Origin: an uncultured Pelagibacteraceae bacterium
Lineage (GTDB): Bacteria > Pseudomonadota > Alphaproteobacteria > Pelagibacterales > Pelagibacteraceae
NCBI GenBank assembly: GCA_902622805.1
Contig: CACNRG010000009.1
Location: 1-41,118, forward strand
Direction of reading: 5' to 3'
Length of the DNA: 41,118 bases
Shown one piece after another: positions 364 through 6,046 of this stretch. A program made the translations under genes and the position numbers. The notes under the pieces are model-generated. The model was not told the origin of the DNA. It made no database searches and saw nothing but the letters and a program-made list of their open reading frames with translations. Within the stretch, counting starts at the first letter, position 1. Each line of letters starts with the position of its first letter.

Positions 364-508
364 TTCTTAAAAGAATTATTTGATCAAAGAAATTATGAAT
401 TTTCAACTTTATCTTTGTTTTTTTTTTGAAATAATGTTTAAATTGAGTTCAACTAGAAATTGTCTTAAAAAAAGAATTAGTTAATTAAATCAATAAAAAA
501 TTTTGATA

Positions 509-844
509 TTAATTTAATTTACCTAGATAATTTACCATTACCACTCCAATAATAATCAAAACGACTCCAATTAATCCATAAATATTTGGGAATTGATTGT
601 ACTTTACAAGAGCAAATAAAACTACACCAGTGACTGTTAGCCCACTGTAAGTTGAATAAGCAAATCCAACTGGAAGCACCTGCATTGCTTTAGCTATACA
701 AAACATTGTAATACACATTAATAAAATACATAGAACAGAAGGAGTTAATTTTGTGAAACCGTCAGACATTTTTGCTAAACTGTTACAAGCTATGCCAAAT
801 AAAATTGCAGATGTAAGAAAAAAGTATCCAAATAAAGGTTTCAT
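509..844 (-). CDS. SMR (EmrE-like) small membrane protein lacking the proton/substrate Glu
   Basis: This is a 111-residue, four-helix membrane protein of the small multidrug resistance family, the size of EmrE. It matches EmrE closely in several places: K25-M-S-D-G-F-T aligns with K22-F-S-E-G-F-T, followed by the L-x-P-S-V step into helix 2, and P-x-G-x-A-Y in helix 3 keeps the Tyr60 equivalent. However, the invariant membrane-embedded Glu14 of EmrE/Gdx transporters aligns with Gly17 (codon GGC, complement of 794-796), and Trp63 aligns with a Tyr. Classical proton-coupled antiport depends on Glu14, so ordinary drug/proton exchange is doubtful. It stands alone rather than as a paired SMR, divergent from the cmk-like gene. 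Family membership is clear; transport function and substrate are unknown. Confidence 0.85.
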   Translation of the reverse strand: MKPLFGYFFLTSAILFGIACNSLAKMSDGFTKLTPSVLCILLMCITMFCIAKAMQVLPVGFAYSTYSGLTVTGVVLFALVKYNQFPNIYGLIGVVLIIIGVVMVNYLGKLN

Positions 845-918
845 TAATTGTAGTTAATTATTTAATGTTATCAAGATTATCAAATTATTGAATATTTACT
901 ATTTTATTATTTAAACTT

Positions 919-936
919 TAATAGAATAGTCTATTA
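919..936 (+). promoter_or_regulatory. Inverted repeat 6 nt upstream of cmk start
   Basis: TAATAGA and TCTATTA are perfect inverted arms of 7 nt separated by ATAG. The repeat ends 6 nt before the ATG of the cytidylate kinase-like gene. In RNA it would form a small AU-rich hairpin over the ribosome-binding region; in DNA it could be an operator. In such AT-rich sequence it may also be chance. Confidence 0.3.
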
Positions 937-942
937 GATCAT

Positions 943-1584
943 ATGGTTAAATTTAAAAAATTAATTATTGCTTGTGATGGCGAATCAGCAAGTGGAAAAA
1001 GTACGGCAGCAAAGCTAATTTCAAAAAAGTACAAACTTTTATTAATCAATTCAGGTCTAATTTATAGATACTGTAGCAAATTGATTATTAAAGAAAAACC
1101 TAAAAATCCGATTCTGTTTTTGAAAAAAAGACTAAAAAAAATTTCTTATAAATCTATATCAAAGCAAAATCTTCATACAGAGGAAATTTCAAATCATGTT
1201 GCAATTCTGGCAAAAAATAAAAAAATTAGAAATATTGTTAATGAATTTCAGATGAAAATGATAAAAAAAAATAGTAGAATTTGTGTTGAGGGACGAGATA
1301 TTGCTAGTAAAATTTTAGCTATAAATCCAAAATATGATTTAGCTTTCTATTTTAAATGTAGTTTAAAAGTTGCTGCCTTCAGACGTTGGATTGATTTAAA
1401 GAAATCAGTTCCATTAAAAGAAGTCAAAAAATCCTTAAAGATTAGAACTTCTTTAGACAAGAAAAGGAAAAATAGTCCTTTAGTTAAAGTTAGAGATGCC
1501 ATTTTAGTTAGAAGTGATCAGCTAAATAAAAAAGAAGTTTTGATTAAGATGTCAAAATCAATTGATAAAGTTTTAAAAAATTAA
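943..1584 (+). CDS. cmk: Cytidylate kinase (CMP/dCMP kinase), divergent
   Basis: A 213-residue NMP kinase that would phosphorylate CMP/dCMP to the diphosphate with ATP in the cytoplasm. The P-loop is at residues 13-21 (GESASGKST, where the family usually has GPxASGKGT). The CMP-binding segment is NSGLIYR (36-42, usually DTGALYR). VEGRDI lies at 115-120, and the lid and base contacts are D172-KK-R175-K-NSPL followed by VRDAILVRSD. These order and spacings fit Cmk rather than Gmk or Adk. The replacement of the usual GRDIGT by GRDIAS and the drift around the base site make it a diverged member. The gene is not in the common aroA-cmk-rpsA context, so it could be a paralogue. It converges on the MFS gene with a 4-bp overlap. 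Confidence 0.8.
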   Translation: MVKFKKLIIACDGESASGKSTAAKLISKKYKLLLINSGLIYRYCSKLIIKEKPKNPILFLKKRLKKISYKSISKQNLHTEEISNHVAILAKNKKIRNIVNEFQMKMIKKNSRICVEGRDIASKILAINPKYDLAFYFKCSLKVAAFRRWIDLKKSVPLKEVKKSLKIRTSLDKKRKNSPLVKVRDAILVRSDQLNKKEVLIKMSKSIDKVLKN

Positions 1585-2918
1585 TATTTTCTTTCATCTT
1601 TTTCTTTAGAATCTATAATATTATCTAAATTTGAAAATGTCTCTATAGTAGACTTAGGTTCTTGGATTGGTTCTGTTTGAGGATTTAATTCAATCCCTGC
1701 TGGAGTAATAGTTTGTGGCATTGCTACAAACTGTGAGTCTGGATTATCTACTGTTTGTCTTACTTTCATTCTATAAATTCCAAAGATACCAATTACTGCA
1801 TGAAAGAAAAATAAGAATATAAAAAATCCATTTGATCCAACAATATCCATAAAAATAGAACATAAAAAAGGGCCACTCATTGCACCCAATCCAAATACAA
1901 ATTGTAGACCTGCACCTGCAGCAACAAATTTTTCTTTCGGTATGTAGTCATTTGTATGTGCTAAAATTAAGGAAAACATTGGCAAACTACAAAATGAAAA
2001 GAGTATTAAAAAAATATAAAACCAAGTTTTACTAGTAGCTAAACCTCCAGGTAAATACATCTGTCTTGAAACTAAAATTGCAAGAAGTGCGAATAATGCT
2101 GCACCAAAAGTAGAAATAACAATAACTAATCTTCTATCGTAGATATCAGATATTTTTCCAACAGGAAACTGTGAAACAGCTCCAGAAATTGCCAACAAAA
2201 ATGTAACAATTGAAATCTCTAAAATTGAAAAATTCATTGAAGTTGCGTAAACTGCCAATAAAGTAAATAAAGCAGCTTGGATTGTTCCGTAAAAAAAAGA
2301 ACTTACCATTCCAAATGGAGATGCCTCATATAGATCATTTAATGTCATTGCTTTAATACGTTTAAAGGTAGGTGGTTTTTTTTTAGTTAATAAAATAGGA
2401 ATAAGAGCAGCTGATGTAATCACAGATATTAGAATAAAAGGTTGAAAATTTTTAGGACTGCTAAAATTAAGTAAAAACATTCCTATACCCATTGATCCAT
2501 AAAGAATGACCATATAGATAGACAGAACACTTCCTCTATTTCTATTACTGGATCTATCGTTAAGCCAACTTTCAGCTACCGTATAAATACAAACCATACT
2601 TATTCCAGTTAACACTCTTAACAAAAACCAAATGAATGGGTTAATTAATATAGAGTGAACTAAAATAACTAATGATGCTAATGAAGCAAATGCTGCAAAA
2701 ACTCTTATATGTCCAACTCGTGAAATTATATTTGGAATTGTAGCTGCACCTATAAAATATCCAACAAAATAACCAGACATCATAAAGCCTGTTGCAGTTA
2801 GACTAAATTCCTCTTGTACAGCTCTTACACCAAGTAATGAACCTTGGAATCCATAAGCCATCATTATACATCCCATACCCAAAAAGAGTGCCCAAGAGTT
2901 TTTTAAAACTTTATTCAT
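1581..2918 (-). CDS. MFS transporter (YcaD-like)
   Basis: A 445-residue major facilitator permease with about 12 hydrophobic helices and a hydrophilic, Pro/Gln/Thr-rich C-terminal tail from about residue 395. The N-half carries SYFVGYF/IGAATIPNIISRVGHIRVFAAFAS and VAESWLNDRSSNRNRGSVLSIYM type segments, characteristic of the alphaproteobacterial YcaD/YfkF-like branch. The cytoplasmic loop motif GKISDIYDRR is visible between helices 8 and 9. The substrate cannot be read from sequence. A promoter-like pair lies just upstream (2947-2975), so it is probably transcribed on its own despite being downstream of the DMT gene. Its stop codon overlaps the end of cmk by 4 bp on the other strand. Confidence 0.85.
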   Translation of the reverse strand: MNKVLKNSWALFLGMGCIMMAYGFQGSLLGVRAVQEEFSLTATGFMMSGYFVGYFIGAATIPNIISRVGHIRVFAAFASLASLVILVHSILINPFIWFLLRVLTGISMVCIYTVAESWLNDRSSNRNRGSVLSIYMVILYGSMGIGMFLLNFSSPKNFQPFILISVITSAALIPILLTKKKPPTFKRIKAMTLNDLYEASPFGMVSSFFYGTIQAALFTLLAVYATSMNFSILEISIVTFLLAISGAVSQFPVGKISDIYDRRLVIVISTFGAALFALLAILVSRQMYLPGGLATSKTWFYIFLILFSFCSLPMFSLILAHTNDYIPKEKFVAAGAGLQFVFGLGAMSGPFLCSIFMDIVGSNGFFIFLFFFHAVIGIFGIYRMKVRQTVDNPDSQFVAMPQTITPAGIELNPQTEPIQEPKSTIETFSNLDNIIDSKEKDERKY

Positions 2919-2946
2919 AAAAAATTGCAGTAACTATTCGCGATCT

Positions 2947-2975
2947 ATTATTAAATCAAGTCTTAATTGTGACAA
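2947..2975 (-). promoter_or_regulatory. Putative sigma70-type promoter of the MFS gene
   Basis: On the minus strand TTGTCA (complement of 2970-2975) and AATAAT (complement of 2947-2952) are separated by 17 nt, matching consensus at 5 of 6 positions each. The predicted transcription start is about 22 nt before the MFS ATG at 2918. It sits in the 59-bp gap downstream of the DMT permease. Confidence 0.45.
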
Positions 2976-2977
2976 GC

Positions 2978-3838
2978 TTAAGAATTTTTTAGCTTTAAAA
3001 AAGAATGAATTGCAATAGTAAGAATTATTATTATGCCTCCATAAAGTGTTTCAATACTTGGTTGCTCTTTTATTATCAGCCAAACCCAGATTGGACCTAC
3101 GATGGTCTCTAATAAGAAAAATAGGTTGACTTCAGCTGCAGGAATAAATCTTGGAGCTATGGTTACCAATACAAAAGGTATTGCAACGCATAAGATACAC
3201 ATTAAAGGCACTATGATAAGGTCTTTTTCATTAAGCACAAAACTCTCAATAAAGAATAAAGCAAAAGTTGCTACAAATAATTTTCCAACAACAGCAGCAG
3301 GAACAAGATTTTTTGATTTTGCAGACCTTATAGTAACAGCACCTACTGCTAAACCTATTGCTGTAATAAATCCTAAAATATCTCCATAAAAATTACCTAA
3401 TTTCAGAGAGTCAAAAAAAATATAAATTATAGCTAAAAAGGTGATTACTATTGAGATCCAAGTTTTTTTGTCAGGAGGTTCTTTTAAAAAAATTGCACCA
3501 AGAATAGCCGATAACATTGGAGCAGTAGCAATCATTACAAGTGTATTTGCTACATTTGTATTCTGAATTGAAACTACAAATGTGATGTTTGTTACACTAA
3601 ATGTACCCACATAAATAAGTCCGTGATAACCACTTGTAAAAAGAATCTTAAAGAAGTTTAATTTATAAATTATTAACATTCCAAAAAAAACTGTAAAAAA
3701 TGGAATTATTCCTCTATAAAAAACTAAACCCCATGTGTCAATATTTGAAAGTCTTATAAATAAAGAGTCAGGTGTAATAAACATTACAGCCACAAAAGCA
3801 AGTAAAGAACCTTTTTGTTGGTCAGTAAGATTGTTCAT
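2978..3838 (-). CDS. DMT superfamily permease (EamA domains)
   Basis: A membrane protein of about 286 residues with ten hydrophobic segments forming two EamA repeats. The second repeat ends in PSIETLYGGIIIILTIAIHS, typical of the family. I choose the start MNNLTDQQKG at 3838 because its ATG overlaps the gshB stop as ATGA, a common coupling arrangement; the open frame extends 6 codons further to 3856, inside gshB. It is probably an exporter of amino acids or small metabolites, since DMT proteins usually are, but the substrate is unknown. Location directly behind gshA-gshB suggests a possible link to thiol or peptide metabolism, which is inference only. Confidence 0.85.
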   Translation of the reverse strand: MNNLTDQQKGSLLAFVAVMFITPDSLFIRLSNIDTWGLVFYRGIIPFFTVFFGMLIIYKLNFFKILFTSGYHGLIYVGTFSVTNITFVVSIQNTNVANTLVMIATAPMLSAILGAIFLKEPPDKKTWISIVITFLAIIYIFFDSLKLGNFYGDILGFITAIGLAVGAVTIRSAKSKNLVPAAVVGKLFVATFALFFIESFVLNEKDLIIVPLMCILCVAIPFVLVTIAPRFIPAAEVNLFFLLETIVGPIWVWLIIKEQPSIETLYGGIIIILTIAIHSFLKLKNS

Positions 3839-4761
3839 GCTTTTAATTCTTCCCAAAAAATTTTAGCAAGATTAACTTTTGATAAATCATAAAAAGTTTT
3901 TAATCCGGTAGGTGATGTAACGTTGATATCTCCATTTAGTTTTTGATCAATAAAATCAATTCCAGCAAAAAAAATATTTTTTTTTTTTAAATCTTTAGCA
4001 ATTAAATCAGATATTTTTTTTTCTATATTTGATAGTGTAGTAATAATTGGTTTAGCTCCTTTACTCATATTACTTAAAAATGAACCTTTTTTAGGAACTC
4101 TAGAAATTACACCAACAACTTTACCATTAATCAAAAAAACTCGTTTATCACCGTCGCTTATTTTAGATAAATATTTTTGACAAACAATATGCCCATGTTT
4201 TTTAATAAATTTTTTGATAAATTTTAAATTAAATTTACTTTTTAGATAAATATCATTTCCACTAAAGCTATGAATAGGCTTAAGAATTACCTTCTTATGT
4301 AATTTAAAAAATTTTTTTATTTCAACTAAATTTTGGGTAAATATAGTGTCCGGCATAAATTTTTGATATTTAGCCGAATAAAGTTTTTCAGAAATATTTC
4401 TGATTGAGGTTGGGTCATTTATAATTTTCACCTTCTTTTTAATTGTATCTAAAATATAAGTTGTTGAGATATATTCTAAATTAAATGGGGGATCTTGTCT
4501 GATTAAAATAAATTTACATTTTGCAAGATCTAGATCTTTTTTTTTTAAAATTCTAAATTTTTTTTTATTATTATAATCAAATTTTATAAAAAATCCCTTA
4601 GCAATAACTTTAGAATTAATTACAGATAAATTCTTAGGATCATAATAGAATATTTTATATTTTTTATTCTGAATTTCATTAGCTAGAAAAATAGTTGTAT
4701 CAGTTTTTGGATTTAGTTTAGAAGGATGATTTCCTTGGATAGCAATAATCTTATTTATCAT
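3835..4761 (-). CDS. gshB: Glutathione synthetase
   Basis: A 308-residue ATP-grasp enzyme that joins gamma-glutamylcysteine and glycine to make glutathione. Diagnostic motifs are IRQDPPF (87-93), the NDPTSIRN segment (116-123), the ATP-grasp lysine stretch VILKPIHSFSGNDI (158-171), SDGDKRVFLINGKVVGVISR (202-221) and the C-terminal INVTSPTG (279-286), which carries metal and substrate ligands. Length matches the bacterial GshB family. The gene overlaps the end of gshA by 11 bp and is followed by the DMT permease through an ATGA overlap, so the three are probably one transcript. A run of 12 A in the coding strand (3977-3988, codons around K259-N262) is a potential slippage or mutation site. Confidence 0.95.
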   Translation of the reverse strand: MINKIIAIQGNHPSKLNPKTDTTIFLANEIQNKKYKIFYYDPKNLSVINSKVIAKGFFIKFDYNNKKKFRILKKKDLDLAKCKFILIRQDPPFNLEYISTTYILDTIKKKVKIINDPTSIRNISEKLYSAKYQKFMPDTIFTQNLVEIKKFFKLHKKVILKPIHSFSGNDIYLKSKFNLKFIKKFIKKHGHIVCQKYLSKISDGDKRVFLINGKVVGVISRVPKKGSFLSNMSKGAKPIITTLSNIEKKISDLIAKDLKKKNIFFAGIDFIDQKLNGDINVTSPTGLKTFYDLSKVNLAKIFWEELKA

Positions 4762-6046
4762 ATAATTCGTTCAAATCTTCATTTTTAGAAAATTTACTAA
4801 TCATATGTTCTGCATTTGTGGTTTTATTATCAATTATCTTTTGTAAGTGATTTAAAAATAAAGTCTCATTTTTCTTATTCTTGTTCAGTATATCTCTGTT
4901 TTCTAATCCCTTTCTCGATAAATCTAATAGTTTTGAAGCCCAGTAAAGAAGATCTTTACCCATTAATTGGGTATTAAACCCTTTTTGGGGAGCTTCTAAA
5001 TAAGCATTAATTATTTTTTCTTTATCCCACTTAGAAATTAATTCATAAACTTCATCGACATTACCATATAACATCCCAATATTAAACGCAGGTCCGGCAC
5101 ATAAACAATCCCAACCACAAGTATCCATCGATCTAAGCTCTATATACTTCTTAAGTCTATTTTCTGTAAAAATTGTACTTAGGTGAGTGGATAGATCGTT
5201 TTCATTTGGTAATCGATTTCCAATTTCATTAATTTTTCCATTCATGAAATCTTTAAAAATGTATTTTTTTCCTGAAATATAAGCATCTTTATCTTTAATA
5301 AATAAAATTGGAAAATTCATAATAAATTCAGCATAATTTTCAAAATTTAATTCATCAAAAAACATCTTTGGTAGACCTCCTCGAGCTGTGTTTTGCCAAA
5401 CTTTTGATCTATATGATAAGTAACCACTTTTTTTCTTTTCAACTATTGAAGAGTTAGCGAATAAAGCAATTGAAATAGGCACAATTGAATTAACTATTCT
5501 AAATTTTTTAATAAAATCTTCTTCAGAATCGTAATCTATATTTAATTGTGTTCCACAAGTACGATACATCATATCCAAACTTAATTCACCATTTGAAGGC
5601 ATATCTTTTGTCATGAGTTTGTATCTTTGTTTTGGATTATTTGGGATTTCATCAAGTTTGGATATTGGATCAAATCCAGCACTCACAATACTTATATTCA
5701 ATTTTTTTGTAACTTGCTTTAATTCAAATAAATAATCATGAGACTCAGCACAAGCCTCGTGAATATTATTAAGTTTTTCACCTGATAATTCTATTTGATT
5801 TCCTGGCTCAAGAGTGATGTTTTTCTCACCTTTATTAAGACCTATAATATTATTTTTTTCTAGGATAGGATTCCAACCAAACTCCAATAAAGCAGAAAAC
5901 ATCTCTTTTATTTTTAAATAATTAATTCGTTTATTATTTTGGTTATTAAATAAAAATTTTTCATGTTCAATTCCAATTTTAATATCTTTAGAATTTTTTA
6001 TACCCGATTTGAAATATTCAATAATTTGTTCTTTTTTATTAATCAT
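4751..6046 (-). CDS. gshA: Glutamate-cysteine ligase, plant/alphaproteobacterial type
   Basis: A 431-residue GCS2-type enzyme that catalyses the first step of glutathione synthesis, gamma-linkage of glutamate to cysteine. It has IGIEHEKFLF (24-33) with the metal-binding Glu residues, LEPGNQIELSG (near 80) and MMYRTCGTQLNIDYDSEEDF (near 160), which are hallmarks of the plant-like class also found in alphaproteobacteria. RSMDTCGWDCLCAGPAF lies in the C-terminal half. It is followed by gshB with an 11-bp overlap, so both steps of the pathway are translated together. A promoter-like pair in the 78-bp gap behind purF suggests it can be transcribed separately from purF. Confidence 0.95.
   Translation of the reverse strand: MINKKEQIIEYFKSGIKNSKDIKIGIEHEKFLFNNQNNKRINYLKIKEMFSALLEFGWNPILEKNNIIGLNKGEKNITLEPGNQIELSGEKLNNIHEACAESHDYLFELKQVTKKLNISIVSAGFDPISKLDEIPNNPKQRYKLMTKDMPSNGELSLDMMYRTCGTQLNIDYDSEEDFIKKFRIVNSIVPISIALFANSSIVEKKKSGYLSYRSKVWQNTARGGLPKMFFDELNFENYAEFIMNFPILFIKDKDAYISGKKYIFKDFMNGKINEIGNRLPNENDLSTHLSTIFTENRLKKYIELRSMDTCGWDCLCAGPAFNIGMLYGNVDEVYELISKWDKEKIINAYLEAPQKGFNTQLMGKDLLYWASKLLDLSRKGLENRDILNKNKKNETLFLNHLQKIIDNKTTNAEHMISKFSKNEDLNELYDK

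Follow-up and report, generated by a model that had tools for sequence, protein, structure and literature searches.

A SAR11-centred clade of SMR proteins with glycine in place of Glu14, a possible unrecognised subtype

The gene on the reverse strand at 509..844 of the window (the whole stretch of DNA that was analysed, 41,118 nucleotides) has an ATG start and encodes a 111-residue SMR-family protein in which a glycine, Gly17, occupies the position of the central Glu14 of EmrE. The protein is type B of a Gly14/Asn18 clade that is conserved in SAR11. On the strength of sequence comparison, the odds are roughly even (a probability of about 0.5) that the clade represents an unrecognised SMR subtype, which would have given up Glu14-based proton antiport and would move a non-cationic solute. 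A more specific proposal, put forward somewhat more tentatively, is that a fifth SMR subtype extends across SAR11, that it arose from a Glu14 ancestor when four pocket positions changed on a single branch, abandoning proton antiport, and that its 110-residue members may be facilitators or exchangers for neutral or anionic metabolites. Position numbers (14, 18, 22, 40, 60, 63, 67, 78 and so on) follow EmrE numbering.

The 509-844 protein matched the PF00893 profile (E 2.8e-17, 63.4 bits, cut-off 23.7), and its 111 residues and four predicted helices are typical of the SMR family. All of the EmrE-like motifs to which a preliminary description had drawn attention, KxSDGFT, LxPSV and PxGxAY, were found. 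The phmmer alignment with EmrE was ungapped over residues 7-109, and both it and a MAFFT alignment paired Gly17 (GGC, 794..796) with Glu14. The best AF2 model had four helices (mean pLDDT 82.8, pTM 0.65) and placed residues 4-58 on EmrE 1-55 at 1.4 Å over 55 residues, the same register of +3 as in the alignments; the other four models had pLDDT values of 69.9-75.2. The alignments and the AF2 register thus confirmed the substitution that the preliminary description had reported. The monomer fits EmrE/Gdx over residues 4-58 only, that is TM1-TM2 or half of the protein, and its best structure match reached a Z of 7.9, a value nearly equalled by unrelated helical bundles. The model of a type A protein had a pLDDT of 79.7.

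Glu14 has been called essential for the binding of both substrate and protons in EmrE, where the pocket is lined by E14, T18, Y40 and L47, with T18 one helical turn from E14 (PMC9000954, partial text), and changing E14 to any residue except Asp abolishes function (PMC9860125, partial text). In the 509-844 protein, Asn21 (782..784, reverse strand, as are all of the codons given here) was at the Thr18 position, where Asn was found in 51/51 Gly14 rows and 0/63 Glu14 rows of the tree described below. The Tyr switch at position 60 was present as Tyr63 (656..658), with Tyr in 114/114 tree rows, while Trp63 of the Qac/EmrE binding site was replaced by Tyr66 (647..649), with Tyr or Phe in 51/51 Gly14 rows and Trp in 63/63 Glu14 rows. 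Thr70 (635..637) replaced Gly67, the second glycine of the GXG fulcrum in TM3, so that the protein reads GLT, and none of the 51 Gly14 rows had Gly there. The GXG fulcrum is a feature of the Gdx, Qac and polyamine subtypes. Phe78 was replaced by Lys81 (602..604), Lys or Arg being present at this position in 168/169 Gly14 rows, and Lys25 was located at the Lys22 position.

These 169 Gly14 rows belong to a wider alignment of 190 SMR rows, 186 from loci and four seeds, three of which repeat locus proteins. All 169 shared Asn18, Lys22, Pro55 and Tyr60, and Gly65 was invariant among them, with Ala or Ser in some later loci. All four of E14, T18, Y40 and W63 were substituted across the Gly14 clade. 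The preliminary description had considered that an acidic residue elsewhere in helix 1 might stand in for Glu14; none did so, and among 211 Gly14 rows taken from four overlapping sets, with repeats included and with approximate helix borders, a single Glu at position 52, at the edge of TM2, was the sole acid within the helices. With E14, T18, Y40 and W63 replaced and no acid standing in for Glu14, the known proton-coupling route is gone, and the earlier view that the Glu14 mechanism is impossible for this protein was borne out by the Gly at the site. A cation uniporter driven by the membrane potential alone, with aromatic residues replacing Glu, would accord with the Tyr or Phe kept at position 63 and with the Qac models as the nearest in score, but is very doubtful, considering the lack of an acid in the cavity, the extra conserved Lys/Arg at 78 and the loss of EmrE function on E14 changes other than to Asp, cited above.

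The glycine is real. Among the close homologues, taken as the 80 best-scoring of 188 confirmed stretches and titled for the most part Pelagibacteraceae, Pelagibacter or Pelagibacterales, with a few other or unplaced Proteobacteria, the matching gene was B-type with Gly at position 14 in every case (80/80). Gly is thus fixed in the close, mostly SAR11-titled, homologues, and the sequencing error that the preliminary description had allowed for is ruled out. The helices and fold motifs were likewise conserved among the homologues. Across the 190 SMR rows, position 14 was Gly in 169, Glu in 20 and Ser in one. The lone Ser14 row was the A copy of locus L075 (98-460, a MAG), which looks degraded; nothing of that kind was seen for B. 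At Gly14, types A and B each use the full set of four Gly codons, and the eight C genes use three of them. The median pairwise dN/dS was 0.074 for A, 0.078 for B and 0.102 for C, from 359/400, 378/400 and 11/28 usable pairs, respectively. Error or gene decay as the origin of Gly17, for which the degraded A copy in L075 is the one favourable sign, has next to no probability in view of Gly in all 80 relatives and a dN/dS of about 0.08.

A tree of 114 SMR rows (51 Gly14 and 63 Glu14) was built without columns 14, 17, 18, 63 and 67. In this tree, which has few columns, an unsettled bootstrap and a root for drawing only, the 51 Gly14 rows formed a single clade (support 100/96), marked by Gly14, Asn18, Tyr/Phe63 and the absence of Gly67 and comprising types A, B and C. 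Positions 14, 18, 63 and 67 needed one change each, all on one branch; the presence of Tyr40 needed three changes and Lys78 two. Glu14 appears to have been lost once, with the Thr18 to Asn and Trp63 to Tyr/Phe replacements and the loss of Gly67, in a SAR11-centred subfamily. That Glu14 was lost rather than gained is indicated by the many Glu14 lineages outside the clade, the tree being unrooted. The clade later split into A and B/C, and some rows labelled C by the script are B or A by tree position (L114, L209).

The nearest relatives outside the clade are found in the same family. Eight genomes (G810, G817, G841, G856, G867, G898, G917 and G924) carry Glu14 cousins (L236-L243) that retain Glu14, Thr18, Trp63 and GLG but resemble the Gly14 clade in having Lys78, which is present in all eight, and a loop 3 of the [YF]xQxPN type. 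The three Glu14/Lys78 rows kept in the tree, in which Tyr40 is absent, branched just outside the Gly14 clade (97/91, 99/97). The tree suggests that Tyr40 was already gone and Lys78 already present in an ancestor that still had Glu14. Since the Glu appears to have been lost once and the gene to have stayed intact afterwards, the protein probably carries another cargo in another way.

The distribution of the clade was followed with a profile, A2, built from 13 Gly14 proteins, which at the E-values used matched 46/385 genomes of the class, 129/398 of the phylum and 213/297 of the family, SAR11 genomes being counted in all three sets. Glu14 proteins of the family scored from 1.8e-33 to 7e-37 with A2, so Gly14 was counted at 4e-39 or better, the weakest whole Gly14 protein having scored 4.0e-39 and the strongest Glu14 protein 7.0e-37. 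By this score, the Gly14 clade was present in 198/297 family genomes (213 minus 15 weaker ones) and in 108/127 of those of good quality (113 minus 5); one of the 15 weaker genomes is G975, where the gene end is cut off and position 14 is missing. The score band was uncontradicted by any family protein read; a Gly14 protein from beyond the family, that of G397, scored 1.6e-35. Of the 56 loci from outside the SAR11 family (L116-L171), which were the best matches, at most 30 per search, of a larger number, 55 had Glu14 and one Gly14. The exception, L116, came from G397, a small genome belonging to the same class, and had both Gly14 and Asn18. The Gly14 SMR of G397 (L209, 4020-4346) lay on a long branch of the tree and, in its genome, directly after a DddP-like gene (below cut-off), and it was possibly acquired by transfer. 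As for viral carriage, the A2 scan found no relative in IMG/VR. Nineteen phage records matched P0001, all at less than 60% identity; of the ten listed, five carried an EmrE/QacE-type or SMR transporter annotation, one (the same phage in a second record) was labelled QacE, one was labelled hypothetical and three were unannotated.

The preliminary description had raised the possibility that a partner subunit supplies the missing Glu, and a second SMR gene with Glu14 was indeed found in the source genome. This genome (G000, 942 kb, 82% complete) has three SMR genes: the B gene at 509-844, a second Gly14 gene, of type A, on contig C13, and the Glu14 gene on contig C1 (L001). The A and B genes are on separate contigs of the incomplete assembly. 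Elsewhere, A preceded B in the same orientation in 69/80 loci, B was without A in the fetched stretch in 11/80, and type C replaces B in some genomes. The arrangement partly resembles that of the paired SMRs MdtIJ and EbrAB in that the two genes are often in tandem, but differs in that both members lack Glu14, their charge biases are not opposite and either type can stand alone. The mean Arg/Lys bias was +0.30 for A and +0.86 for B, near zero with approximate segment borders, whereas more than 95% of adjacent SMR pairs show opposite bias (PMC9574504, partial text).

SMR genes were counted in 20 chosen genomes (91-100% complete), 15 selected for one earlier match each and five as single contigs, by a PF00893 search down to E 0.01. 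The sole SMR was a Gly14-type gene in 15 of the 20, as judged by letter in six (G806, G813, G839, G850, G891 and G938) and by score in nine; G839, a single contig of 100% completeness, has a single SMR with Gly14. In each of the remaining five genomes, one match scored like an ordinary Glu14 SMR and was accompanied by one or two that scored within the Gly14 range. The letter at position 14 was seen to be Gly in G357 (B), G834 (A), G842 (A) and G267 (A and C). Glu14 was seen by letter only in G012, for its second gene (L095), the rest of the genes of these five genomes being assigned by score. A third match in G834 was weak (17.5 bits, a 307-residue frame, under the cut-off). Because 15 of the 20 chosen genomes have a single SMR of Gly14 type, the protein can apparently do without a second Gly14 gene and without a Glu14 partner. 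Completion of the site by a Glu14-bearing subunit is consequently scarcely credible: the Glu14 gene on C1 would be a candidate in the source genome, but both genes of the usual A-B pair have Gly, and the Glu-less gene is so often the only SMR.

The usual gene order was SnoaL-like, DSBA-like, A, often a DUF2798-family gene, and then B. The DUF2798-family gene lay between A and B in 34/69 A-B loci (75 residues in L010, 4771-4995), and in six further A-B loci an opposite-strand ORF was called in the gap. No tRNA gene was found in the A-B gap of about 213 bp in the six loci searched. No Rfam match reached the gathering score in 12 loci or the window, so no guanidine riboswitch was found there. In the window, the B gene has as its neighbour an ORF judged by eye to be P-loop kinase-like (943..1584, forward strand), relatives of which lie beside a lone B in L007, L043, L067 and L071. 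Further along, at 2978-6046, are EamA-like, ATP-grasp (glutathione-synthetase-like) and glutamate-cysteine-ligase-like genes, also assigned by eye; homologues of the first two are near the lone B genes of L007, L043 and L067.

Elsewhere the neighbours varied. A lone gene preceded ugpB and ugpA (over cut-off) in L200, and BLAST or ORF length pointed to the same order in L202, L203 and L217, but not in L201, L218 or L220. A C-type SMR followed phnE (over cut-off) in L215, and L216 was alike. In L215, the region 401-5250 runs in one direction through an HTH and nucleotidyltransferase fusion, phnD-like and phnC-like genes (by eye), phnE, the C-type SMR and a DMT-like gene (by eye). Lone genes were also located between branched-chain-type permease genes (L205, NCBIfam matches below cut-off), after mtnP and mtnA (L206) and after dxs (L207), and in L235 the gene was flanked by a gpsA-like gene (below cut-off) on one side and an FGGY kinase on the other. 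Overall, the neighbours in these compact genomes were mixed and indicated no single solute. In several genomes the gene is part of, or adjoins, an ABC operon (ugp, phn or branched-chain type), which, together with the frequent DUF2798-family gene, could suggest a membrane subunit with an accessory or regulatory role for other transporters, either ABC importers or the DUF2798 protein, that is itself no transporter. This interpretation is quite unlikely, as there is no constant partner, and Tyr60 and the SMR fold residues are under strong purifying selection.

The ordinary Glu14 SMR of SAR11 has a setting of its own. In L001 (1453-1785) and 17 other loci it has Pro at the Lys22 position, and it adjoins an acyl-CoA-synthetase-like gene (f20, by eye) in 18/18 loci. 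A PMT_2 match lies about 6 kb from this Glu14 SMR, or from a like-scoring gene, in G000, G012, G267, G357 and G842.

The best NCBIfam score of the 509-844 protein was to the Qac model NF033137, 66.8 bits against a cut-off of 188; ArnE gave 17.7 bits (cut-off 92) and ArnF 17.1 (cut-off 99). All of the listed NCBIfam SMR models were below cut-off, likewise for two A proteins and one C protein. The Gly14 clade shares with Qac/EmrE its length, four helices, Tyr60, Pro32, Pro55, Asn102 and the loop-1 GFT motif, but is without Glu14, Thr18, Tyr40, Trp63 and Gly67. A shift towards the EamA family was rejected, since six Gly14 proteins scored 13.4-26.3 bits, not above the 25.0-27.2 bits of three Glu14 proteins.

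The lipid subtype is said to be the sole SMR subtype that moves non-cationic substrates, and its ArnE/ArnF-type members are often without the central Glu but retain the Tyr switch (PMC9574504, partial text). The Gly14 proteins could similarly be lipid or glycolipid flippases, in which a headgroup would enter the cavity, the tail would pass through a TM2 portal and no proton coupling would occur. A PMT_2 glycosyltransferase match in 12/12 SAR11-family genomes tested (GtrA-type, 0/12) is consistent with such a role, as are the neighbours that touch lipid precursors (dxs, the gpsA-like gene with the FGGY kinase, and ugpB). However, the ArnE and ArnF scores are far under the cut-offs, and the two A proteins and one C protein are far nearer the Qac models. 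Moreover, Asn is often at the Glu site in ArnE/ArnF, whereas the site here is Gly, with Asn four residues further on. No lipid A operon was noticed in the loci read, and phnE, mtnA/mtnP and the branched-chain-type permease genes do not fit, so that a flippase is unlikely.

If the clade is instead an unrecognised subtype that has given up proton antiport, its members would most likely still form the antiparallel SMR dimer, presumably a homodimer where there is only one gene and a homodimer or an A-B heterodimer elsewhere. Rocking between two faces with the Tyr60 switch is probably kept, judging from its conservation. There would be no proton coupling via Glu14, and the holding of a cation at that site is unlikely. 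Asn18, a single turn of the helix away from the former Glu14 site, may line the cavity, and the solute may be non-cationic, a neutral or anionic small metabolite carried passively or by exchange. Several points count against this explanation: 1) the neighbours are mixed, 2) the AF2 model fits TM1-TM2 only, 3) the charge bias is unlike that of heterodimers and 4) the GXG fulcrum is broken, so that alternating access may be altered.

SMR proteins are a standard model of a minimal proton-coupled transporter. The genes of the clade match PF00893 and, within NCBIfam, score highest with the Qac models, so that labelling them multidrug or quaternary ammonium exporters is likely to be misleading. Among the full-text literature matches listed, with subscription-only papers and preprints outside that set, there was no report of Glu-less SMRs in SAR11, and SAR11 went unmentioned in the listed matches on the idea of a glycerol facilitator. 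An island of Arctic SAR11 is reported to carry an SMR gene, which may or may not be of this type (PMC12421898). SAR11 has a conserved clade without Glu14, a residue termed invariant in the SMR family (PMC9000954, partial text), the lipid subtype being named as the exception (PMC9574504, partial text). Together with its Glu14 cousins in the same family, the Gly14 clade constitutes a natural before-and-after pair for the loss of coupling and a change in substrate type.
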